Source: Oscillospiraceae bacterium (GTDB lineage: Bacteria; Bacillota; Clostridia; Oscillospirales; Oscillospiraceae). Taken from it: a stretch of 35,101 bases of DNA. Position 1 is the first letter of the stretch; each line of letters begins with the position of its first letter. Location: positions 1 to 35,101 of the forward strand of contig JAFSAP010000031.1 in NCBI GenBank assembly GCA_017440925.1. Direction: 5' to 3'. The notes under the pieces are model-generated. The model made no database searches. It saw nothing but the letters and a program-made list of their open reading frames with translations, and was not told the DNA's origin. The translations under genes and the position numbers were made by a program. Of this stretch, positions 8,488 through 34,642 are shown one piece after another.

Positions 8488-8526
8488 AGAAAAAACCTGC
8501 GAACAGGCATGTTCGCAGGTTTTGTT
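8488..8526 (-). terminator. Terminator of the pyruvate formate-lyase operon
   Basis: A 13-bp stem (8492-8504 with 8511-8523, AAAACCTGCGAAC/GTTCGCAGGTTTT) is followed by a T-run on the minus strand. It starts 3 bases past the stop of pflA and can also act on the plus strand. Confidence 0.9.
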
Positions 8527-9290: not shown

Positions 9291-9533
9291 TTAGATCTTC
9301 TCGTGGAAGGTACGGGAGATGACTTCGTCCTGCTGCTCCTTGGTCAGCTTGACAAAGTTGACAGCGTAGCCGCTGACGCGGATGGTCAGCTGGGGATATT
9401 TTTCAGGATGTGCCTGGGCATCCAGCAGGGTTTCCTTGCTGAACACATTGACATTCAGATGATGGCCGCGCTTTTCTACATAGCCATCCAGCAGGGAAAC
9501 CAGATTGTCGATCTGCTTTTCGGTAGCTTTCAT
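9291..9533 (-). CDS. Stand-alone glycyl-radical domain subunit (C-terminal part of pyruvate formate-lyase)
   Basis: 80-aa protein equivalent to the C-terminal glycyl-radical domain of PFL. It has HHLNVNV (24-30), then [15 protein letters not shown] with the radical glycine at Gly55, and ends [14 protein letters not shown]. Gly55 is 25 residues from the C-terminus, the same distance as Gly734 in the 759-aa E. coli enzyme. It has its own AAGGAGG ribosome binding site and an ATG at 9533, 137 bases after the stop of the core gene. YfiD/GrcA is a comparable small protein, but it repairs an intact PFL. Here the adjacent core lacks this domain, so the small protein is probably an obligate subunit. 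That requirement is inferred. Confidence 0.9.
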
Positions 9534-9572
9534 AGTAAGTTTCCTCCTTATGGGAATTCAGGGTATCTCTTG

Positions 9573-9662
9573 CCTCTCCCTTTGGGACTTAGTGGCCGTT
9601 GCAGCGAAGCAGCTTACGGACACTTAGTGCAAAGCGGAGGTGCCCCGCAGGGGCGGAGAGGG
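9573..9662. repeat. Structured intergenic repeat-like element between PFL core and radical-domain genes
   Basis: Bounded by inverted CCTCTCC (9573-9579) and GGAGAGG (9655-9661). Inside are a direct ACTTAGTG repeat and a GCCCC/GGGGC hairpin. The CCTCTCCCTTTGGG...GGAGAGGG architecture resembles palindromic elements scattered through gut Clostridia genomes. Copy number cannot be seen from one window. Confidence 0.45.
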
Positions 9663-9670
9663 TATTTGCT

Positions 9671-11812
9671 TTATTCGCCGTCCAGACCTTCGAACAGGGT
9701 GGGAACGGCAGCGCAGGAGTTGCACTCCAGCTCATCGGGCTCCAGACCCAGATCGCTCAGTTCCATGCCCAGATCACCGAAGTCGCCCATGAACAGGTCA
9801 TCGTCCTTGCCCAGAGCGCCGGGAATGATGGAGAAGGTGTTGGAGATGCCGTCCTGTGCATCCTTGAAGCTGAGCTTTGCCACGGAAGCCAGAGAAGCAA
9901 TGGCACCATGGGTATCACGGCGGTGCATGGGGTTGGCACCGGGGGCGAAGGCCTCGCCCTTCTTGCGGCCGTCGGGGGTGGAACCGGTGGCCTTACCGTA
10001 GACCACATTGGATGTGATGGTCAGAATGGAGGTGGTGGGGATGGAGTCGCGGTAGGTGTGGTTCCTGCGGATATGCTCCATGAACTTATGCAGGATCATA
10101 TTAGCCAGAGCGTCCACACGGTCATCGTCGTTGCCGTACTTGGGGAAGTCGCCTTCCACTTCGTAGTCTACAGCCAGACCGTTTTCGTCACGGATGACCT
10201 TAACCTTGGCATACTTGATGGCGGACAGGGAGTCGGCCACAACGGACAGGCCGGCAATACCGGTGGCGAACCAGCGGGTGACCTTCTTGTCGTGGAGAGC
10301 CATCTGGATCTTTTCGTAGCAGTACTTGTCATGCATATAGTGGATGACGTTCAGGGTGTTGACGTAGACCTTGCACAGCCATTCCATCATAGCGTCGAAA
10401 CGCTCCATGACTTCGTCGTAGTCCAGATATTCGGAGGTGATGGGACGGTACTTGGGGCCAACCTGCTTCTTGGAGACTTCGTCCACACCGCCGTTGATGG
10501 CGTACAGCAGGCACTTGGCCAGGTTTGCACGGGCACCGAAGAACTGCATTTCCTTACCCAGACGCATGGAGGAGACACAGCAGGCAATGGCGTAGTCATC
10601 GCCGTGGGTGTAGCGCATCAGATCGTCATTTTCGTACTGCAGGGAGGAAGTCTCGATGGAGACCTTGGCGCAGTAACGCTTGAAGTTCTGGGGCAGGCGG
10701 GTGGACCACAGAACGGTGAGGTTAGGCTCGGGGCTGGGTCCCAGGTTATACAGAGTGTGCAGGTAACGGTAGGTCATCTTGGTGACGAAGTGCTTGCCGC
10801 AGGTGCCCACACCGGCCAGGGACTCGGTGACCCACTGGGGATCGCCGGAGAACAGGGCGTTGTATTCGGGGGTACGGGCGAACTTGATGAGGCGCAGCTT
10901 CATGATGAAGTGGTCAACCATTTCCTGGATCTGCTCTTCGGTAAAGACACCGTTGCGCAGGTCACGCTCTGCGTAGATATCCAGGAAGGTGGAAGTACGG
11001 CCCAGGGACATGGCGGCGCCGTTCTGCTCCTTGACGGCAGCCAGGTAGCCGAAGTACAGCCACTGGATGGCTTCCTGCACATTCTTGGCAGGCTGGGAAA
11101 TATCAAAGCCATAGGAAGCAGCCATCTTCTTCAGATCCTTCAGCGCACGGATCTGCTCGGACAGTTCCTCGCGGTCCCGGATGACATCAGCATACATGGC
11201 GGAGTCGGTACGGTTCTTCTGCTCTTCCTTGTCAGCGATCAGGAAGTCAACACCGTACAGGGAAACACGGCGGTAGTCACCGATGATGCGGCCGCGGCCG
11301 TAGGCATCGGGAAGACCGGTGATAATGTGGCTGGAACGGCAGGCCCGCATTTCAGGGGTGTATGCATCGAAGACACCGGCATTGTGGGTCTTGCGGTGAA
11401 CGGTGAAGAATTCCTTGACCTCGGGATCCATGGTGTAGCCGTTATCGGCGCAGGCCTTTTCTGCCATGCGGACACCGCCGTAGGGCATCATAGCCCGCTT
11501 GAAGGGCTTGTCCGTCTGGAAACCGACGATCTTTTCCTTGTCTTTGTTCAGATAGCCTGGGCCATGAGAGGTGATGGTGGAAATCACATGGGTGTCCATG
11601 TCCAGAACGCCGCCGGCTTCCCGCTCCTGACGGGTCAGATCCATGACCTGATCCCACAGATCCAGGGTATTCTGGGTGGGGCCAGCCAGGAAGGATTCGT
11701 CGCCATCGTACATGGTGAAATTGTGCCGGATAAAGCTTCTCAGATCAATCTCGCGAACCCAGCTGCCTTCACGGAAGCCGAGCCAGCCTTCATAGGGATA
11801 CTGGTTTTCCAT
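9671..11812 (-). CDS. pflB: Pyruvate formate-lyase catalytic core lacking the glycyl-radical domain
   Basis: Converts pyruvate plus CoA to acetyl-CoA plus formate; 713 aa. It carries the catalytic cysteine pair Cys411-Cys412 in [35 protein letters not shown], and the late core up to [18 protein letters not shown]. At that point normal PFL continues into the glycyl-radical domain. This protein instead ends in an acidic tail of about 40 residues ([17 protein letters not shown]..., FEGLDGE). The missing domain is the next gene (9291-9533). AAGGAG lies 9 bases before the ATG at 11812, and a good promoter is upstream. All core residues appear intact, so this is not a decayed copy. The tail could help dock the small subunit, which is inferred. 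Confidence 0.92.
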
Positions 11813-11865: not shown

Positions 11866-11893
11866 AGTATAGCATGTCTGCCGGGAAAGTCAA
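11866..11893 (-). promoter_or_regulatory. Promoter of the pyruvate formate-lyase operon
   Basis: Minus-strand TTGACT (11893-11888), 16-bp spacer, TATACT (11871-11866), with TG-C before the -10. It lies about 50 bases before the pflB start. Confidence 0.75.
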
Positions 11894-25855: not shown

Positions 25856-26929
25856 ATGAAAAAGATTAATTGGCCCATCGTTCTGGCTGGCGGCCTGGTA
25901 GGTCTGGCTGCTGTCGTCCTGACTGCTCTGGGCAACCCCGCAAACATGGGCTTCTGCATCGCCTGCTTCCTGCGTGATATCGCCGGTGCTACCAAGATGC
26001 ACAGCGCCGCTGTCGTTCAGTACTTCCGTCCCGAAATCGTGGGTCTGGTTCTGGGCGCATTCATCATGTCCGTTGCCTCCAAGGAGTACCGCGCAAAGGC
26101 CGGTTCCTCCCCCGCTACCCGTTTTGTCCTGGGCGTTTTCGTCATGATCGGCGCTCTGGCATTCCTGGGCTGCCCCCTGCGCATGATGCTGCGTCTGGCT
26201 GGCGGTGACCTGAACGCTCTGATCGCTCTGTTCGGCTTCGCTGCCGGTATCGGTGTCGGCGTTGTCTGCCTGAACAAGGGCTTCTCCCTGAAGCGTGCTT
26301 ATGATGTGGGCAAGGCTGAAGGCAGCATGCTGCTGGTAGCTCTGGTTGGCCTGTTCATCCTGTCCCTGGCTGTTCCCTCTCTGTTCGCATTCTCCGAGAA
26401 AGGCCCCGGCTCCATGCGCGCTCCCGCTCTGGTTGCTCTGCTGATCGCTGTTGTTGTGGGCGCTGCTGCCTACAAGACCCGTCTGTGCATGGCTGGCGGT
26501 ATCCGTGACGGCATTATGTTCAAGGACTTCCGTCTGCTGTTCGGCTTTGTTGCAGTCTTTGTTATCGCTCTGATCGGCAACATCGTTATGGGCAACTTCA
26601 AGCTGGGCTTCGCTGGCCAGCCTGTTGCTCACTCCGACCATGTCTGGAGCTTCCTGGGCATGGCTCTGGTCGGCTGGGGTTCCGTGCTGCTGGGTGGCTG
26701 CCCCCTGCGTCAGCTGATCCTGGCCGGCGCTGGCAATGGCGACTCCGCTGTTGCTGTCCTGGGCATGATCGTTGGTGCTGCATTCTCCCACAACTTTGGT
26801 CTGGCTGGCGCAGCTGCTTCCGCTGATGCTGCCGGCGGCGTTGGCATCAAGGGCCGCATCGCCATCATCGTTGGCTTCGTTGTGTTCGCTGCTATCAGCG
26901 CTCTGAACATTCAGAAGCAGGAAAACTAA
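25856..26929 (+). CDS. yedE: YedE-family putative selenium transporter
   Basis: 357-aa membrane protein with about nine to ten hydrophobic segments, of the YeeE/YedE (TsuA-like) family. It has the family's duplicated signature: GCPLRMMLRLAGGD in the first half and GCPLRQLILAGAGNGD in the second, plus the N-terminal GNPANMGFCIACFLRD and the central KTRLCMAGG. These cysteines are thought to pass sulfur or selenium across the membrane. The genes that follow (TusA/YedF-like, DUF3343, SelA, SelB) identify it as the selenium-associated type. Strongly biased codons suggest high expression. The substrate form of selenium is not known from the sequence. Confidence 0.9.
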   Translation: MKKINWPIVLAGGLVGLAAVVLTALGNPANMGFCIACFLRDIAGATKMHSAAVVQYFRPEIVGLVLGAFIMSVASKEYRAKAGSSPATRFVLGVFVMIGALAFLGCPLRMMLRLAGGDLNALIALFGFAAGIGVGVVCLNKGFSLKRAYDVGKAEGSMLLVALVGLFILSLAVPSLFAFSEKGPGSMRAPALVALLIAVVVGAAAYKTRLCMAGGIRDGIMFKDFRLLFGFVAVFVIALIGNIVMGNFKLGFAGQPVAHSDHVWSFLGMALVGWGSVLLGGCPLRQLILAGAGNGDSAVAVLGMIVGAAFSHNFGLAGAAASADAAGGVGIKGRIAIIVGFVVFAAISALNIQKQEN

Positions 26930-26941
26930 GGAGGTAACACA

Positions 26942-27145
26942 ATGGTTGACGTAAGAGGACTGCTGTGCCCCATGCCCCTGGTGACCGTCCGCAAGGAGAT
27001 CGAAAAGAACGCTCCCGCTTCCCTGGAAGTTCTGTTTGACGACAAGGGTGCTCTGGATAACGTTACCCGCTTTGTTACCGGCCTGGGCTACAAGACTGAA
27101 GTTGTCAAGGATGGCCCTGACTACAAGCTGGTGCTGAGCAAATGA
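26942..27145 (+). CDS. TusA/YedF-family sulfur (selenium) carrier protein
   Basis: 67-aa single-domain protein of the TusA/SirA family. The conserved CPMPL motif with Cys9 sits at the end of the first strand (DVRGLLCPMPL), and the beta-alpha-beta-alpha-beta pattern is complete. Full YedF proteins have an extra DsrE-like C-terminal domain, absent here. It lies 12 bases after yedE with an AGGAGG site and overlaps the DUF3343 gene by 4 bases (ATGA). Its likely task is to accept Se or S from YedE or the desulfurase on Cys9 and hand it on; this is inferred from context. Confidence 0.88.
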   Translation: MVDVRGLLCPMPLVTVRKEIEKNAPASLEVLFDDKGALDNVTRFVTGLGYKTEVVKDGPDYKLVLSK

Positions 27146-27384
27146 AAGAATACATCGCTACATTCCATACCCATCTTGCAGCGCTGATGACCTGCCGCAA
27201 TTTAAACGGCAGGGGGGCGAAGGCTGGCATGATGCCCGTTCCCAGGAAGCTCAGCTCTTCCTGTGGTACCTGCGTTCGTTATCAGGCAGACGGACCTCTG
27301 CTTGAGGCAATGGATGCGGATGTAGAGGGTGTATATGAAGTCATCGGCAAGGACGCCTATGTCCAGCTGATGGACAATCAGTAA
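27142..27384 (+). CDS. DUF3343-family putative Se/S carrier
   Basis: 80-aa protein of the DUF3343 group, small proteins found with yedE/yedF and selenium genes. The core motif is PVPRKLSSSCGTCVRY; the second Cys (CGTC, a CxxC arrangement) is an addition to the more usual SSSCG. An N-terminal FHTHLAALMTCRNL contributes another Cys. It is translationally coupled to the TusA-like gene (ATG inside the upstream stop) and followed by a strong terminator, so yedE, the TusA-like gene and this gene form one transcript. Function is unknown; a role in delivering selenium to SelD is plausible. Confidence 0.82.
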   Translation: MKEYIATFHTHLAALMTCRNLNGRGAKAGMMPVPRKLSSSCGTCVRYQADGPLLEAMDADVEGVYEVIGKDAYVQLMDNQ

Positions 27385-27391
27385 CCGGATC

Positions 27392-27427
27392 CTGCCCGGA
27401 GGAAACTTCCTCCGGGCAGTTTTTTTG
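27392..27427 (+). terminator. Terminator of the yedE operon
   Basis: CTGCCCGGAGGAA/TTCCTCCGGGCAG stem (27392-27404 with 27407-27419) followed by T7, 7 bases past the DUF3343 stop. Confidence 0.93.
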
Positions 27428-27436
27428 CAAAATCGG

Positions 27437-27465
27437 TTTACAAGTCGGAAAAAATAGATTATGAT
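27437..27465 (+). promoter_or_regulatory. Promoter of selA-selB
   Basis: TTTACA (27437-27442), 17-bp spacer, TATGAT (27460-27465). It lies 45 bases before the selA start. Confidence 0.78.
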
Positions 27466-27509
27466 ACACTGGTAAGATAATGGAAAGAAAACAGGAGGAC
27501 TTTGGAATC

Positions 27510-28886
27510 ATGAATCAGAAGCTTTTGCGTCAGATCCCCAAGGTAGATGAACTGATGAAGCAGCCCCGGCTTCAGGAACTGTGCGGCAGTGTGCCTGCCC
27601 AGAAAGTGACGGAGGCAGTGCGCCAGATCCTGGATGAGCTGCGTGCATCCATTTTAAATGGCAGCATTGAGGAACTTCCTGATATGGCCGGACTGTGTGC
27701 CCAGGCGGTGGCAGTTGCCAATAAGAAAGCGGAGTATTCCCTGCGGAAGGTCATCAATGCCACCGGCATCATTCTGCATACCAATCTGGGCAGAGCCTGC
27801 ATTTCTGACCGGGCAGCAGCGGCTGCCTGTGAGGTCGCCAAGTCCTATTCCACGCTGGAATATAATCTGGAAGCTGGACGCCGCGGCACCCGCTACAGCC
27901 ATGTGGAGGAGCTGCTGTGCCGCCTTACCGGTGCGGAAAGCGCCCTGGTGGTGAACAACAATGCGGCTGCTGTGCTGCTGATCCTGTCCGATATGGCCCA
28001 GGGCGGTCAGGTCATCACCTCCCGCGGAGAACTGGTGGAGATCGGCGGCTCCTTCCGGGTGCCCGATATCATGGAAGCCTGCGGCGCAGAGCTGAAGGAA
28101 GTAGGCACCACCAACAAGACCCATCTGCGGGACTACGACCGGGCCATCACCGAAAAGACCCGGGCACTGATGAAGGTGCACACCAGCAATTACCGCATTG
28201 TGGGTTTCTCTGAAACGCCCAGCTTGCCGGAACTGGTGCAGCTGGGTCACGAACGGGGCCTGCCGGTCATTGAAGACCTGGGCAGCGGCAGCCTGGTGGA
28301 TCTGCAGCAATTTGGTATCTACGATGAGCCCTCCGTGCAGGATTCTGTCCGGGCCGGTGTGGATGTGGTGAGCTTCTCCGGTGATAAGCTGCTGGGCGGC
28401 CCCCAGGCGGGTATTATCGTGGGCAGAAAGAAAATCGTGGACAGCCTGAAGAAGCATCCTCTGACCCGCGCCATGCGTGTTGATAAGATGACCCTGGCTG
28501 CTCTGGAGGCAACGCTGCGCAGCTATGATGCCGGTCTGACTGCTGAGATCCCCACACTGGCCATGCTGGCGGCTACCCCTGACCAACTGAAGGCTAAGGC
28601 AGAGATCCTGCGGGGCCTGATGGTGGATGCCGGAATTGCGGCAGAGGTGGTTCCCACCGAGGGACAGGTAGGCGGCGGCAGCGTCCCCACCCAGATGCTG
28701 AAGTCTTTCGCAGTTGCTGTGCAGCCCAAAGCTGTGAATCTGGATCAGCTGGAAACCAATCTGCGGCTGGGCAGCCCTGCCATCGTGGGCCGCATCAACC
28801 ATGACCGGTTCCTGCTGGATGTCCGTACTCTGCGGGAAAGTGATTTTGCCGATATTGTAAAGGCAGTGGGGGAGGCTGAAAAATGA
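27510..28886 (+). CDS. selA: L-seryl-tRNA(Sec) selenium transferase
   Basis: PLP enzyme that converts Ser-tRNA(Sec) to Sec-tRNA(Sec) using selenophosphate; 458 aa, normal length. The family landmarks are INATGIILHTNLGRA (83-96), YNLEAGRRGTRYSHVEELL, VNNNAAAVLL, EVGTTNKTHLRDY and the PLP lysine Lys293 in SFSGDKLLGGPQAG. An in-frame ATG at 27480 exists, but AGGAGG at 27493-27498 sits before the ATG at 27510, and the protein then begins as expected. selB overlaps its stop by 4 bases. SelA forms a decamer in bacteria. selD, which makes its selenophosphate donor, is not in this window. Confidence 0.97.
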   Translation: MNQKLLRQIPKVDELMKQPRLQELCGSVPAQKVTEAVRQILDELRASILNGSIEELPDMAGLCAQAVAVANKKAEYSLRKVINATGIILHTNLGRACISDRAAAAACEVAKSYSTLEYNLEAGRRGTRYSHVEELLCRLTGAESALVVNNNAAAVLLILSDMAQGGQVITSRGELVEIGGSFRVPDIMEACGAELKEVGTTNKTHLRDYDRAITEKTRALMKVHTSNYRIVGFSETPSLPELVQLGHERGLPVIEDLGSGSLVDLQQFGIYDEPSVQDSVRAGVDVVSFSGDKLLGGPQAGIIVGRKKIVDSLKKHPLTRAMRVDKMTLAALEATLRSYDAGLTAEIPTLAMLAATPDQLKAKAEILRGLMVDAGIAAEVVPTEGQVGGGSVPTQMLKSFAVAVQPKAVNLDQLETNLRLGSPAIVGRINHDRFLLDVRTLRESDFADIVKAVGEAEK

Positions 28887-30796
28887 ATCATGTAATCATT
28901 GGTACAGCCGGACATGTTGACCACGGCAAGACTTTACTGATCAAGGCGCTGACGGGTATCGATACTGACCGGCTCCAGGAAGAGAAGAAGCGGGGCATCA
29001 CCATCGAGTTGGGCTTTGCCCACCTGGACTGGCCCGATGGCACGCAGGCTGGTATCGTGGACGTGCCCGGCCATGAGAAATTCATCAAGAATATGCTGGC
29101 AGGTGCCGGCGGCATTGACCTGGCCATGCTGATCGTGGCAGCTGATGACGGCTTCATGCCCCAGACCCTGGAGCATTTGGATATTTTGACACTGCTTGGT
29201 ATCAAGGACGGCTGCGTGGTCATCACCAAGAGCGATGTGGTGGATCCCGAGTGGCTGGAAATGATGAAAGAAGAGATCGTTGGCCGGGTGGAGGGCACCT
29301 TCCTGGAAGGAAAGCCTGTTCACTGCGTGTCTGCATATACCGGGCAGGGCATTCCCGAACTGCGGCAGGAGCTTCACGATATGGTGCAGCGGGCCGCAAT
29401 GAAGAATCTCCGGGTGCCTTTCCGCCTGCCGGTTGACCGCGTGTTCAGCGTAGATGGCTTCGGCACTGTTGTCACCGGAACCCTGATCGAAGGCTCCATG
29501 CACGAGGGTGACAATGCAGAGCTGATCCCCGGCGGTGCAGCCACCCGCATCCGGAATCTGCAGGTTCATGGCAAGGATGTGGATACCGCCTATGCAGGCC
29601 AGCGTGTGGCCGTCAATCTGGCGGGTCTGAAGAAAACCGATATCCAGCGCGGTGACGCTGTGGCAAAGCCCGGCTCTGTCCGCACTTCCCGGATGCTGGA
29701 CGTGCGGCTGCAGAACCTGCGGGGCTCCAAGCGTGTGATCCAGAACGATTCCCAGGTGCATCTGTACCATACCTCTCAGGTGCAGCTGGCCAAAGTGGTG
29801 CTGCTGGACCGGGATACGCTGAATCCCGGCGAAAGCTGCTATGCCCAGCTCCGCCTGACGGATCCCATTGCCACCAAGTCCGGTGACCGGTTTGTCATCC
29901 GGTTCTATTCTCCGCTGGAGACCATCGGCGGCGGCGTGATCCTGGACGATGCTCCGGCCCGCCATAAGCGGTTCCAGAGCGCTGTTCTGGAGGCGCTGAA
30001 GATCAAGGAGACCGGCTCCGGCGGTGACCGGGTGATCCAGGTGCTGACAGAGTTTGGTACGGAACTGCCTACCGCTGCAAAGCTGGCAGCCAAGCTGCGG
30101 ATGGAAGAGACGGAAGTTGCCGATGCTGTCCGGGAGCTGTGCGCCCGGGGCAGGGCAGTGGAACCCCTGGAGGGACGTTATGCTTCATCTGCGGTTATGG
30201 ATAAGACCTGGGATACCTGCCGGGAGATCCTGGCCGGTTACCACAAGCAGAATCCCCTCCATGCAGGCATGAAAGAAGCAGAAGTCCGCCAGAAGTGCTT
30301 CAAGAACCTGGATCAGACCACGGCAGATGCCCTGCTGGGTGCTCTGCGGCAGGAGGGTAAGCTGCGCCGTGTTTCCGAACGGTATGCCCTGGGTGATTTT
30401 GAGATCAAGTTCACCAAGCGGCAGAACAACATCAAGCAGAAACTGCTGCAGACTTATCAGAAAGCCGATCTGGAAAGCCCTGCCACCGATGATGTGCTGG
30501 CCGGGTTCCCTCAGAATGAAAAAACCGATGCAAAGCAGGTTCTGGAATCCCTGGTCACCGGTGGCGACCTGGTAATGCTGACACCGCAGATCTGCTGGTA
30601 CAAGGATACCTATGCAAGAGTCTGCGATGTGGTAAAGACCCATTTTGAGAGCCATGAAACCATTACACTGGGCGAGCTGCGGGATCTGATCAATTCCTCC
30701 CGGAAATATACCCTGGCGGTTCTGGAATATTATGACAAAAACCGCATCACCAAAAAGGACGGCGATCTGCGCTATCTGGTGGGCTTTCGGGATTGA
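28883..30796 (+). CDS. selB: Selenocysteine-specific elongation factor
   Basis: 637-aa GTPase that brings Sec-tRNA(Sec) to in-frame UGA codons. The N-terminal G domain has [11 protein letters not shown] (G1), [10 protein letters not shown] (G2), [12 protein letters not shown] (G3) and TKSD (G4), followed by EF-Tu-like barrels. A C-terminal part (from about residue 370) is made of winged-helix repeats that bind the SECIS RNA hairpin. It starts inside the selA stop (ATGA), so the two proteins are made together. The tRNA-Sec gene follows 69 bases after its stop. A GrdB gene with an in-frame UGA lies 2.5 kb downstream. Confidence 0.97.
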
Positions 30797-30826
30797 TCGA
30801 TTTTCTCGATAAAATGTAAAATATGC

Positions 30827-30855
30827 TTGCATTTTAAAAATGCTTATGGTATGAT
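30827..30855 (+). promoter_or_regulatory. Promoter of the tRNA-Sec gene
   Basis: TTGCAT (30827-30832), 17-bp spacer, TATGAT (30850-30855), ten bases before the first tRNA base. The tRNA therefore need not depend on selA-selB transcription. Confidence 0.8.
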
Positions 30856-30865
30856 GATTGCCCAT

Positions 30866-30962
30866 GGGAGTAGATGGGTGCTGGTGTGCCCCCCGGTCTT
30901 CAAAACCGGTGAGGGGGGCTAGGAACCTCCCGGGTGGGTTCGATTCCCACATATTCCCGCCA
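30866..30962 (+). tRNA. selC: tRNA-Sec (anticodon UCA)
   Basis: 97-base tRNA including encoded CCA. The acceptor begins GGGAGTA and pairs with TATTCCC; an eighth position would be G-A. The D arm has the 6-bp stem and UGGU loop typical of tRNA-Sec (30876-30891). The anticodon loop CTTCAAA holds TCA (30900-30902). A long variable arm follows (GAGGGGGGCTAGGAACCTCCC), then the T arm GTGGG-TTCGATT-CCCAC, discriminator G and CCA. The long extra arm and UCA anticodon are diagnostic. It stands between selB and the glycine reductase operon. Confidence 0.96.
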
Positions 30963-30964
30963 AA

Positions 30965-31000
30965 ATACCCCCCGGAAAACGCATTTCTGGGGGGTATTTC
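30965..31000 (+). terminator. Terminator after tRNA-Sec
   Basis: ATACCCCCC/GGGGGGTAT stem (30965-30973 with 30989-30997), continued by an inner GGAAA/TTTCT stem, then TTTCC. It begins 3 bases after the tRNA CCA end. Confidence 0.85.
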
Positions 31001-31238
31001 CTTTGGATTTGGCGTTTTAAATCCTGGGTTTATCAAATTGTTTTGTATAAAATGTAGAAATTTATTTATCAGATTTCTGCATAAATCTTGGACTCATGGG
31101 AAAAAATTTAGTAAAAAGTATCAATAAACGCAGGGAATTGACAGTAAATGGTACTTTTTGAAAGGTTTATGTTCTAAAAAAACGCCGAAAAACCGGAGGA
31201 AATACTATTCACTTAATCGATGATAAAATGTTTGCACT
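31001..31238. other. AT-rich intergenic region before the glycine riboswitch
   Basis: No gene is credible here. A GGAGG at about 31195 is followed only by a 43-codon frame that runs through the promoter and into the riboswitch. A TTGACA at about 31139 lacks a matching -10. The segment probably holds regulatory DNA for the strong grd promoter, but I can name no site. Confidence 0.45.
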
Positions 31239-31266
31239 TGATTTTTCTCCGCAAATGAAGTTTAAT
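31239..31266 (+). promoter_or_regulatory. Putative promoter of the glycine reductase operon
   Basis: TTGATT (31239-31244), 16-bp spacer, TTTAAT (31261-31266). Alternative alignment: 18-bp spacer to TAATAT (31263-31268). It is the best match upstream of the riboswitch; moderate confidence only. Confidence 0.5.
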
Positions 31267-31317
31267 ATTCACGAGGGTTCCGAAGCCCTAAACCTTCAAC
31301 TGCATATGATGTGGATG

Positions 31318-31490
31318 ACGGACACAGGAGATCTGCGTAAGGCAGAGCCGAAGGAATAAGCACCGCAGCTTGCCGCCGCGTTGCGAAGATTTCAGGCAAA
31401 CGGACTGTGACCTGACACAACTCTGGAAAGCGAAAGCACCGAAGGAGCAACCCGTATAGCGGGGAATCTCTCAGGTTAAGATAACAGGGC
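31318..31490 (+). promoter_or_regulatory. Tandem glycine riboswitch (two gcvT-type aptamers)
   Basis: Two consecutive glycine aptamers. The first (about 31318-31410) has GGAGA, GCCGAAGGAATAAGC and TTTCAGGCAAACGGACTG. The second (about 31421-31489) has CTCTGGAAAG, CACCGAAGGAGCAAC and TCTCTCAGGTTAAGATAACAGGG. These are the conserved core blocks of the class (ACCGAAGGGGCAA and CTCTCAGGCAAA...GGACAGGG). P1 of the second aptamer is CTCTG (31421-31425) with CAGGG (31485-31489). That CAGGG is also the base of the following terminator, so glycine binding should favour readthrough (ON). It leads a glycine reductase operon, so the substrate induces its own degradation. Confidence 0.92.
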
Positions 31491-31540
31491 GAGGCAATAT
31501 GAAAAACTGTTCATACTGTCCGACCCTGCTTTTTTATTTT
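31485..31540 (+). terminator. Glycine riboswitch terminator
   Basis: CAGGG (31485-31489) pairs with CCCTG (31524-31528). An internal loop and an upper GGCA-TATG/CATA-TGTCC stem follow, then CTTTTTTATTTT. The lower stem shares CAGGG with aptamer 2 helix P1. Confidence 0.85.
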
Positions 31541-31565
31541 CTCCGGACGGCGGGAGGCCCACGAA

Positions 31566-31979
31566 ATGAAATCACCCCACAGAATTCGGATCATCACCAA
31601 CAACCCCCTGGTCAAGACGGTCTTAAGTGATTACTACACCATCGAGTATTACGAAGACCTGAGCCTCCGGGAGATCCTGGTGAAGGTCAGAGATCTGGTC
31701 TACAGCGGCTACGAACTGTTTACCCATCCTATGGCTGGCAGCGTCAAGCCCAACGAGACCATGTTTAAGTCCATTGTGGTCGGCACGGATATGAAAGGCG
31801 TCGAGATCGCGCACTGCAACCTCATGATGAACGCACTTATCACCTGCGATAAGTTCAAGCCCCTGGGTGTGCAGTATTCCGATTACCACATTAAGGACTT
31901 CCAGTTGATTGACTATACCCTGCTTTGCGGCGCGCTGGATTTCGACGCAATCGCAGGTCTTAGTAAAGCAAATTTCTAA
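31566..31979 (+). CDS. grdX: GrdX family protein
   Basis: 137-aa protein, first gene of the glycine reductase operon. It matches the GrdX family, which regularly leads grd operons and whose biochemical role is not known. Visible features are an N-terminal IRIITNNPLVKTVLSDYYTIEYY, a central HPMAGSVKPNETMFKSIVVG and a C-terminal DYTLLCGALDFDAI. It looks soluble, without signal peptide or membrane segment. A GGGAGG site lies before the ATG, and the gene begins 26 bases after the riboswitch terminator T-run, so its expression depends on readthrough. Confidence 0.88.
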   Translation: MKSPHRIRIITNNPLVKTVLSDYYTIEYYEDLSLREILVKVRDLVYSGYELFTHPMAGSVKPNETMFKSIVVGTDMKGVEIAHCNLMMNALITCDKFKPLGVQYSDYHIKDFQLIDYTLLCGALDFDAIAGLSKANF

Positions 31980-32018
31980 AAGCATCAAAACAAGTAAAAA
32001 AAAGGAGGAGGATTCGCT

Positions 32019-33311
32019 TTGAAATTAGAACTCGGTTTCATTAAGATCAATGATGTTCAGTTTTCAAACGAATGTGCCGTTAAGGACGGCATTCTGTACG
32101 TCAACCCCGAAGATGTAAAGGCTTTCATCTACGACAACGATGATGTTAAGACCTACATCAAGTCCATCACCCTCGACATTGCCAAGCCCGGCGAAAGCGT
32201 CCGTATCACCCCTGTTAAGGACGTCATCGAGCCTCGTTGCAAGGTCGCTGGCCCCGGCGGTATGTTCCCCGGCGTCATCTCCAAGGTCGACACTGTCGGT
32301 TCCGGCCGTACCCATGTTCTGAAGGGTGCTGCAATCGTTACCGCTGGTAAGATCGTCGGCTTCCAGGAAGGCATCATTGATATGTCTGGCGAAGGCGCTA
32401 AGTACACCCCCTTCTCCAAGACTCTGAACCTGGTTATGGTCGCTGAGCCTGTTGAGGGCACCAAGCAGCACGACTACGAGCGCGCTGTTCGTTTCGCTGG
32501 CCTGCGCTGCGCTACCTTCGTTGGCGCACTGGGCAAGGATGTCGAGCCCGATGAAGTCAAGACCTTCGAGACCTACGGCATCATGGAAGGCGCTAAGCTG
32601 TTCCCCGATCTGCCCCGCGTTGGCTATGTCCACATGCTGCAGACCCAGGGCCTGCTGCACGACACCTATGTTTACGGCGTCGATGCAAAGCGCATTGTTT
32701 CCACTCTGCTGTACCCCACCGAGACCATGGACGGTGCTATCCTGTCCGGTAACTGTGTTTCCGCTTGCGACAAGAACACCACCTACCATCACCTGAACAA
32801 CCCTGTTGTTGCTGAACTGTTCGAGCAGCACGGCAAGACTCTGAACTACGTCTGCAACATCATCACCAACGAGAACGTCTACCTGGCTGACAAGCAGCGC
32901 GGTTCCGACTGGTCCGCTAAGCTGGCTAAGCTGCTGGATCTGGATGCTGTTATCGTTTCCGAGGAAGGCTTCGGTAACCCCGACGCTGACCTGATCATGA
33001 ACTGCGTCAAGCAGGAGAAGCAGGGCATCAAGACCGTTCTGATCACCGACGAGTACGCTGGCTGCGACGGTAAGTCCCAGTCCCTGGCTGACTCCGATCC
33101 TCTGGCTGACGCCGTTGTCACCGCTGGTAACGCTAACATGGAAGTCGTTCTGCCTCCCATGGACAAGGTTATCGGTATGCTGGATTACGTTGACTACTGC
33201 TCCGGCGGTCACGCTGGCTCCCTGCGTCCCGATGGCTCCATCGAGGCTGAGCTGCAGATCATCACCGGCGCTACCAACGAAATGGGCTTCAACTGCATGA
33301 GCGCCCGCTAA
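32019..33311 (+). CDS. grdE: Glycine reductase component B, alpha/beta subunit proprotein (GrdE)
   Basis: 430-aa precursor of the substrate-binding component of glycine reductase. It is cleaved autocatalytically at an Asn-Cys bond to give two subunits, the second with an N-terminal pyruvoyl group that forms a Schiff base with glycine. The cleavage site is visible as GNCVSACDKNTTY with Asn245-Cys246. GFIKINDVQF, AGPGGMFPGV and EGFGNPDADLIMNCVKQ are family segments. Translation begins at TTG 32019, with a strong AAAGGAGGAGG site upstream. Codon use is extremely biased, implying very high expression. The glycine riboswitch upstream supports glycine rather than sarcosine or betaine as substrate. 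Confidence 0.92.
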   Translation: MKLELGFIKINDVQFSNECAVKDGILYVNPEDVKAFIYDNDDVKTYIKSITLDIAKPGESVRITPVKDVIEPRCKVAGPGGMFPGVISKVDTVGSGRTHVLKGAAIVTAGKIVGFQEGIIDMSGEGAKYTPFSKTLNLVMVAEPVEGTKQHDYERAVRFAGLRCATFVGALGKDVEPDEVKTFETYGIMEGAKLFPDLPRVGYVHMLQTQGLLHDTYVYGVDAKRIVSTLLYPTETMDGAILSGNCVSACDKNTTYHHLNNPVVAELFEQHGKTLNYVCNIITNENVYLADKQRGSDWSAKLAKLLDLDAVIVSEEGFGNPDADLIMNCVKQEKQGIKTVLITDEYAGCDGKSQSLADSDPLADAVVTAGNANMEVVLPPMDKVIGMLDYVDYCSGGHAGSLRPDGSIEAELQIITGATNEMGFNCMSAR

Positions 33312-33337
33312 TTTCGTGAAAGGAGAAGATTGACAAA

Positions 33338-34642
33338 ATGGCTTTTCGTGTAGTACACTATATTAACCAGTTCTTCGCCAACGTCGGCGGCGAAGAGATG
33401 GCTCACATCCCCGCCGAACTGCGTGAAGGCAAGGTCGGCCCCGGCATGGCCTTCGAAACCGCATGGAAGGGCGAGGCTGTTATCGTTAACACCATCGTCT
33501 GTGGTGACTCCTACTTCGCTGAGCATGAGAAGGAAGCTAAGGAGCAGGTCGTTGCTTGGGTTAAGGAAATCAACCCCGACATGTTCATCGCTGGTCCCGC
33601 TTTCAACGCTGGCCGTTACGGCTACGCCTGCGCTAACATCGCTCTGGAAGTCAAGCAGCAGCTGGGCATTCCTGTTCTGACCGGTATGTACGAAGAGAAC
33701 CCCGGTGCTGACTACAAGGACAAGATCCTGATCACCCCCACCGCTAACTCCGCTGCCGGCATGCGTAAGGCTGCTCCCACCATGGCTGCTCTGGCCCTGA
33801 AGCTGATGAAGGGCGAGAAGCTGGGCGCTTCCTGCGAGGACGGCTACATGCCCAACGGCATCCGTGTTAACTTCTTCGAGAAGGAGCGCGGTGCAAAGCG
33901 TGCTGTTAAGATGCTGCTGAACAAGATCAACGGCAAGCCCTTCGTTACCGAGTTCCCCATGCCCAACTTCGACCGCGTCGAGCCCGGCAAGGCTATCCCC
34001 GACATGAGCAAGGTCGTTCTGGGCCTGGCTACCTCCGGTGGTATCGTCTCCAAGGGCAACCCCGACCGTATCGAGGCTTCCAACGCTTCTCACTACGGTG
34101 AGTACGACATCGAAGGCTGGGACGCTCTGACCTCCGAGGGCTGGGAAACCGCTCACGGCGGCTACGACCCCGTCTACGCAAACGAGGATCCCAACCGCGT
34201 TATGCCCATCGACGTCCTGCGTCAGATGGAGCGCGAGGGCAAGATCGGCAAGCTGCATCGTTACTTCTACTCCACTGTTGGTAACGGTACCGCTGTTGCT
34301 TCTTCCCGTAAGTTCGCCGAAGAGTATGCACAGAAGATGCTGCAGGCTGGCGTTCAGGCTTGCATCATGACCTCTACATGAGGTACCTGCACTCGTTGCG
34401 GCGCAACGATGGTTAAGGAAATCGAGAGAGTCGGTATTCCTGTTGTTCACATGTGCACCATCACCCCCATCTCCCTGACTGTTGGTGCTAACAGAATTAT
34501 CCCCACTATCGCTATCCCCCACCCCCTGGGTAACCCCACTCTGACTGCTGAGGACGAGTACGCTCTGCGTTACAAGCTGGTCGATGCAGCTATCAAGGCA
34601 TTCTCTGTCGAAGTCGACAAGCAGACTGTCTTCGAGTTCTAA
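33338..34642 (+). CDS. grdB: Glycine reductase component B, gamma subunit, selenoprotein (GrdB)
   Basis: 434-aa selenoprotein read through an in-frame TGA at 34379-34381 (Sec348). The context MTST-Sec-GTCTRCGATMVKEIER gives the UxxCxxC motif of GrdB, and the frame continues unbroken to TAA at 34642. GrdB takes the glycine Schiff base on GrdE and transfers a carboxymethyl group to the selenoprotein GrdA. A conventional caller would end the gene at 34381 and report a separate 77-aa ORF. A SECIS-like hairpin follows the UGA, and selA, selB and tRNA-Sec are 2.4-7 kb upstream. The start is ATG 33338 with AAAGGAG upstream. It forms an operon with grdX and grdE. Codon bias suggests very high expression. 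Confidence 0.95.
34379..34415 (+). promoter_or_regulatory. UGA-Sec codon with bacterial SECIS hairpin
   Basis: After the UGA, 12 bases lead to a perfect CGTTGC/GCAACG stem (34394-34399 with 34403-34408) with a short GGC loop. An outer ACC/GGT pairing (34385-34387 with 34411-34413) extends it. The position matches bacterial SECIS elements that SelB binds. Confidence 0.75.

Follow-up and report, generated by a model that had tools for sequence, protein, structure and literature searches.

A 35,101-nt stretch of an Oscillospiraceae bacterium (assembly GCA_017440925.1, contig JAFSAP010000031.1, positions 1–35,101; the whole stretch is referred to here as the window) contains a leftwards-read locus in which pyruvate formate-lyase (PFL) is encoded in two parts (Table 1). 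The upstream gene codes for a PFL catalytic core, the glycyl-radical domain expected in the same chain is encoded by the next gene as a small separate protein, and pflA, the gene for the activating enzyme, starts six bases beyond the small-gene stop. The core matches positions 2–665 of the 744-position NCBIfam model TIGR01255 at 1102 bits (equivalog cut-off 994.2) and the small protein matches positions 661–744 of the same model. The Pfam Gly_radical domain is cut internally, with positions 1–50 on the core and 49–106 on the small protein, and the core is homologous to Escherichia coli PFL as far as E. coli residue 681, from which point the small protein continues the match. NCBIfam names the three products formate C-acetyltransferase, autonomous glycyl radical cofactor GrcA3 and PFL-activating protein; the small protein falls below the cut-off of the GrcA model TIGR04365 (90.8 bits vs 170).

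A preliminary description of the window, made from the DNA letters alone, had proposed a core of 713 residues with a Cys411-Cys412 pair that ends at the radical domain, an 80-residue radical protein with Gly55 placed 25 residues before its C-terminus, an immediately adjoining pflA, strong ribosome binding sites and an acidic core tail of about 40 residues. All of these features hold: the cysteines and the glycine align with their E. coli counterparts, pflA scores above its family cut-off, AAGGAG and AAGGAGG precede the core and small-gene starts respectively, and the tail has 44 residues. A consensus scan lists no terminator-like site between the core gene, the small gene and pflA on their strand, and an Rfam search of the region gave one sub-threshold match.

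No further open reading frame (ORF) was found in the 137-nt interval between core and small gene. This interval is rich in predicted hairpins, fragments of it recur in the genome, and the corresponding gap in the close relative G028 is 29 nt; the window gap may therefore be a recent insertion, and is possibly a small mobile palindromic element. Partial copies of positions 9534–9670 are present on three other contigs of the same genome.

Table 1. Features of the split PFL locus in the window, with the third small gene of other loci
Feature	Coordinates	Strand	Basis or remark
PFL catalytic core, without glycyl-radical domain	9671..11812	-	713-aa ORF; NCBIfam and Pfam matches
Core Cys411-Cys412 catalytic pair	10577..10582	-	Aligned counterpart of E. 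coli PFL Cys418-Cys419; unchanged across an alignment of 43 split cores
Acidic C-terminal tail of core, after LGK	9674..9805	-	44 residues, net charge -14; homologous tails aligned
Cysteine/PTLFEGLD motif in core tail (15 residues), in-cis third module	9680..9724	-	Profile of the tails matches separate third proteins
Core-small intergenic region, 137 nt	9534..9670	-	Strong predicted hairpins; fragments repeated elsewhere in genome
GrcA3-type glycyl-radical subunit, 80 aa	9291..9533	-	NF038360, 164.6 bits, cut-off 158
Radical Gly55 of small subunit	9369..9371	-	Aligned counterpart of E. coli Gly734; unchanged across an alignment of 25 small proteins
Small-subunit residues 3-31, resembled by the separate third protein elsewhere	9441..9527	-	Helix and strand in a relative's model
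pflA, PFL-activating radical S-adenosylmethionine enzyme, 251 aa	8529..9284	-	TIGR02493, 302.1 bits, cut-off 231.75
Promoter-like site upstream of core, TTGACT-16-TATACT	11866..11893	-	Consensus match only; 4 in region vs 2.8 expected in shuffles
Terminator-like hairpin, 14 pairs, just past pflA end	8492..8523	.	Consensus match only; 6 found vs 3.2 expected
Third small gene of long-gap split-PFL loci	L139:4189-4413, L120:4262-4486, L136:4232-4471, and 31 more		

Distribution, conservation and origin of the split

GTDB genome contigs were scanned with the small protein, which confirmed at least 581 relatives, and the best 80 loci were examined. A PFL core lies upstream on the same strand in 78 of them and shares one ORF with the radical domain in none of the 78; thus the core-small part of the gene order that the preliminary description proposed to look for in related genomes is present, and the single unsplit ORF that it named as contrary evidence is not seen at these loci. 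The other two are L095, where the contig starts nearby, and L138. The complete cores (n = 73) are 679–716 residues long. Two genomes of the same genus, G008 and G028, share the window layout, which together with the 78 loci excludes chance or a sequencing error; an error of sequencing or assembly is likewise ruled out by the identical layout in isolates and in many metagenome-assembled genomes. The split is found in isolates such as Ruminococcus bicirculans 80/3, Hungatella hathewayi, [Clostridium] citroniae, Blautia sp. An81, Lachnotalea glycerini and Beduini massiliensis, and loci from Erysipelotrichaceae are also among the best 80.

A sample of 391 genomes of the class, including that of the window, contains at least 21 with a protein above the GrcA3 cut-off, and two more (G248 and G258) have separate short radical ORFs scoring just under it, so that a separate radical gene is present in at least 23 of the 391; a PFL match at E<=1e-150 is found in 211. 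Within a phylum-wide sample only two of 398 genomes, G000 and G146, have a match at E<=1e-43, and both belong to this class. The split PFL is thus widespread but patchy, occurring naturally in certain gut and rumen bacteria. Two apparent fusions with an insert, G047 and G055, proved to be split as well, with the small ORF in frame after the core stop.

The PFL model was also used to search 75 genome entries bearing the split, two of which (G139 and G468) are apparently one genome. No full-length PFL above the cut-off is present in 72 of the 75 (25/27, 8/8 and 39/40 in the three sets; 71 of 74 distinct genomes), so the other full-length pflB that the preliminary description had named as contrary evidence is confined to three. 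The core is represented only by contig fragments in G211, G423 and G258, and many of the split-bearing genomes hold other, lower-scoring glycyl-radical enzymes. The window's own genome, which is 68% complete, has no PF02901 match beyond the core. Ratios of nonsynonymous to synonymous substitution rates (dN/dS) in eight pairs of relatives, not all independent, are 0.01–0.04 for the core and 0–0.04 for the small protein. Between the window and G028 each part gives about 0.06. All these values are rough because dS often exceeds 1. The ratios place both the core and the small protein under purifying selection.

Trees built from 95 and 91 PFL cores put the split forms in one well-supported (starred) group, within which two fused rows, G387 and G383, are nested; a fused row with a long branch, G020, neighbours the group in one of the two trees. 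Constraining the splits to a single clade without G387 and G383 is not rejected (approximately unbiased test, p 0.11). The grouping and this test together make one fission likely, with either a later re-fusion or another fission besides. The nested loci L145 (G387) and L146 (G383) encode true fused PFLs without an acidic tail, each either a re-fusion or an unsplit survivor.

A third module on the core tail or in a separate small gene

The ends of 79 split cores (the window and the 78 loci) were read, and all carry an acidic tail of 15–47 residues with a net charge of -3 to -14; a further core, that of G248, has only two residues after LGK. The loci fall into two classes according to the distance between core and small gene, from which the window (137-nt gap, two tail cysteines) is kept apart. 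Tails have at least two cysteines in 43 of the 44 short-gap loci and none in all 34 loci with gaps of 188 nt or more; the lone short-gap exception, L128, looks like the locus of G211, the locus and genome sets being partly overlapping. All 34 long gaps contain a further small ORF (33 by ORF reading and L110 by three-frame translation), and the tails of these loci lack cysteines because the module that bears them sits on this separate ORF. The third module, with its cysteine motif, is therefore on the core tail in the window and in 43 of the 78 loci, and a separate protein in 34 of the 78. Most third ORFs begin within ~25 nt of the core stop, often overlapping it, with L085 and L105 as exceptions by the starts chosen. 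The 29 aligned third proteins have 65–84 residues, a net charge of -10 to -19 and two (9 proteins), three (18) or four (2) cysteines, compared with none to three in the tails; the unaligned L093 protein has 110 residues.

The correspondence between tails and third proteins is seen both in a motif and in profiles. The motif C-x(2-8)-C-x(1-3)-P-[TN] occurs in 33 of the 34 third ORFs, 36 of the 44 short-gap tails and none of the 34 long-gap tails, whereas shuffled sequences are expected to give ~0.2 matches each for third ORFs and short-gap tails. Profile comparison aligns 27 tails with the third proteins over 23 columns (E 7e-9, probability 96%), and aligns the N-terminal half of the third proteins with the radical subunit over 31 columns (E 9e-7, probability 91%). 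The N-terminal half thus copies the helix and strand of the radical subunit without the radical glycine, and the C-terminal half bears the cysteine motif. Among six third proteins compared with the GrcA3 model three match at E<1 (5e-5, 0.0012 and 0.05; the best, L120, over positions 2–31) and three do not. None of the six reaches the cut-off of a Pfam or NCBIfam family, the best Pfam match being L120 to Gly_radical at E 0.035, and no plausible PDB match was found (best E 0.007, to a designed protein). An AlphaFold2 model of the L120 protein is weak (mean predicted local distance difference test score, pLDDT, 57) with one helix at residues 3–18. Values of dN/dS for the third protein are 0.06–0.21 in the six of eight pairs that could be computed.

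The profile of the third protein has matches at E<=0.001 in 28 of the 391 class genomes. In nine of these the match is strong (E<1e-12) and lies at a split PFL locus, in eight cases in the interval from core to small gene and in one (G208) downstream. The weaker matches fall in radical domains, either separate or fused, and the window's genome has no match. The 27 split loci of the genome set comprise 13 with tail cysteines, nine with a third gene, four with neither (G211, G416, G311 and G248) and one (G261) that the script could not read. The association of a long gap with a cysteine-free tail holds in all 47 tree rows bearing both traits, although shared ancestry may explain it, since only three independent pairs lie on starred branches (p 0.25). 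A home-made scan of the 34 long gaps for promoters and terminators gave few candidates, and Rfam at the gathering score found nothing in eight long-gap loci.

A possible role for the module comes from oxygen-cleaved E. coli PFL, in which, according to the accessible part of PMC8683613, residues 696–733 hold a duplicate of the strand of the repair protein YfiD; these residues are required for YfiD binding and efficient activation, which is 32-fold lower without them, and the complex lacking them is fully active once activated. By analogy with this segment, the acidic cysteine module may help to dock the radical subunit or keep its place: the third protein, or the tail in the window, would hold the seat of the radical subunit and aid its loading. 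A [4Fe-4S] cluster would need more than two or three cysteines from a single chain; the cysteines may instead act as a disulfide switch, contribute to a shared metal site or take part in docking. A bolder reading is a machine of three modules in which a blank third module guards or occupies the seat and helps loading, its cysteines serve as a possible redox or metal switch, and phages bring in a radical subunit of their own, a tentative proposal to which we give somewhat less than an even chance.

Evidence for a probable two-part enzyme and alternatives

We consider it very probable that the locus encodes a working PFL in two obligate parts, with the radical domain supplied in trans. The core would form the barrel with its two catalytic cysteines but without the last strand and the radical loop; GrcA3 would contribute in trans the helix and strand, the radical glycine and the C-terminal helix; PflA would place the radical on the small protein; and the three would assemble to make formate and acetyl-CoA. 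This reading is well supported because the arrangement is conserved, both parts are under selection, a full-length PFL is mostly absent, and published E. coli biochemistry agrees. In the portion of PMC8683613 available, an E. coli PFL core cut at residue 695 (tPFL, residues 1–695) has wild-type activity with YfiD once activated, and a core of this shape with a radical domain in trans is therefore chemically workable. The preliminary description had suggested a working two-subunit enzyme with a swappable radical part; on conservation, selection and the absence of a full-length PFL the two-subunit portion stands, and exchange of the small part is at present only plausible.

Several observations weigh against a two-part enzyme. 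Binding of YfiD to tPFL is undetectable by isothermal titration calorimetry and activation is 32-fold below that of cleaved PFL (PMC8683613, in the part accessible), so that a core paired with a radical protein may need a further element for efficient activation. A model of a relative's core and small protein read through as one chain has a mean pLDDT of only 69, and is no test of binding because the covalent link between the parts is artificial. Of 37 genomes in the window's genus just three (its own, G000, plus G008 and G028 among the 36 others) show the radical domain as a separate ORF, and the window's genome, being incomplete, may hold a second PFL. Finally, a full-length PFL accompanies the split in G416, G311 and G458.

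This last observation is what would be expected if the core were decaying and the small protein were only a repair part for an intact PFL elsewhere, for which GrcA/YfiD is the precedent (PMC8683613, as far as its accessible text goes) and with which the NCBIfam name autonomous glycyl radical cofactor agrees. Two of the three genomes with both forms (G416 and G311) also lack the cysteine module; the third, G458 (locus L064), has it. A repair role is nonetheless hard to reconcile with the lack of any full-length PFL in most split-bearing genomes and with cores whose catalytic residues are invariant and on which purifying selection is strong, and we regard it as very unlikely. A further alternative accepts the split and places the enzyme's main activity elsewhere, on another 2-keto acid (2-ketobutyrate, as for TdcE) or another substrate. 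Sequence alone does not settle substrate range among PFL-type enzymes, but the core scores above the PFL equivalog cut-off, lies next to a pflA of its own and, in most genomes that carry it, is the only PFL above the cut-off, which makes this very unlikely.

Full-length PFL might instead still be produced by stop-codon readthrough or frameshifting between the core and small ORFs, and 13 of the 78 loci are indeed in frame with no additional stop between the two genes. However, gap lengths modulo 3 are spread 30/30/18, the core stop varies (TAA 56, TGA 20, TAG 2), gaps reach 446 nt and enclose another gene in 34 of the 78, and a ribosome-binding site that agrees with AGGAGG at five or six positions precedes 66 of the 78 small genes. 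Readthrough is rejected on these grounds and appears extremely improbable.

Viral copies, related systems and neighbouring genes

Beyond the two-part enzyme itself, the small radical part is plausibly exchangeable, since Lachnotalea glycerini has an orphan copy and viral contigs encode copies with no core nearby; cheap replacement after oxygen damage, as proposed in the preliminary description, could be a benefit. The orphan is a second radical subunit (L206:1689-1928) with no core or activase within the 4 kb of sequence examined, and adjoins a regulator that is presumably of the GntR type.

Separate small GrcA3-like ORFs with 70–79% identity are encoded by 13 IMG/VR contigs (L210–L222) of up to 333 kb, giving 11 distinct proteins (L212 equals L222 and L216 equals L217). 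In ten of these contigs no PFL core lies near the gene (flanks of up to 3 kb; L221 is at a contig end), and a split core is also present on L212, L215 and L222. L212 and L222 have identical core DNA, with the small gene before the core and three in-frame TGA codons aligned with tryptophan, from which this virus probably reads TGA as tryptophan. Viral neighbours include an anaerobic ribonucleotide reductase (L212 and L218) and a member of the RNA ligase/tail-fibre attachment family (L216 and L220). Matches to the small protein at E<=1e-5 are found in 1538 records of an annotated phage collection, 95 of which match over at least 80% of the protein; the best are unannotated human faecal records. 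By analogy with Y06I of phage T4, the viral genes support supply in trans without proving it.

The split enzyme resembles E. coli PflB and its activating enzyme in core homology, the cysteine pair, the position of the glycine relative to the C-terminus, the presence of an activase and, in the modelled read-through relative, the predicted fold, and differs in that PflB has its radical domain in the same chain and no acidic cysteine module. YfiD/GrcA and T4 Y06I are likewise separate small radical-glycine proteins that restore PFL in trans, but act as repair parts for an intact PFL that oxygen has cleaved, whereas GrcA3 mostly occurs with no intact PFL in the genome; YfiD also has a disordered 60-residue N-terminus, whereas GrcA3 has only 80 residues and starts with a predicted helix (YfiD and Y06I as described in the accessible part of PMC8683613). 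The window protein belongs by score to NCBIfam NF038360 (rad_fix_GrcA3), a model that names the small protein only.

Small accessory subunits beside a glycyl-radical catalytic subunit are also found in 4-hydroxyphenylacetate decarboxylase and benzylsuccinate synthase, and a [4Fe-4S] cluster takes four cysteines. The third module mostly has two or three, and its N-terminal half resembles the radical subunit; the benzylsuccinate synthase subunits bind [4Fe-4S] and have folds like those of high-potential iron-sulfur proteins (PMC12590467, in the part available).

Two PDB chains named Formate acetyltransferase, 38la (687 residues) and 38lb (739 residues), match split-type cores and have no radical-domain match. 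The first ends where the body of the window core ends, and the second continues into a tail that begins with two cysteines; 38la is possibly a designed truncation of a fused PFL. No GrcA3 chain was matched in the 2026 copy of the PDB sequences, and neither entry is among the 50 matches listed from either structure search (library to 8 April 2026). From these chains, specialists are probably already at work on split PFL cores. To our knowledge no paper describes a naturally split PFL, and none was found in the open literature, a coverage that leaves out subscription papers and most preprints. What is already known is thus the GrcA3 name of the small protein and the PDB chains resembling split cores; what is new is the conserved third module, in cis or separate, and the viral contigs with GrcA3-like proteins, three of them with a split core.

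PFL holds a central place in anaerobic fermentation and in the supply of formate in the gut and rumen. If the two-part reading is true, complementation in trans, as in the repair of E. coli PFL, can be the normal enzyme design, in which the oxygen-fragile radical part may be loaded or swapped separately. The third module bears on the way in which a radical domain takes its seat, leaves it for activation and returns. For annotation, an apparently truncated core and a small 'spare part' protein would be two halves of one enzyme.

Elsewhere in the window a selenium island extends over positions 25856–34381, with a tRNA-Sec gene at 30866–30962 and adjoining genes that we take to be selA, selB, a YedE-type transporter and subunits of a glycine/betaine reductase.
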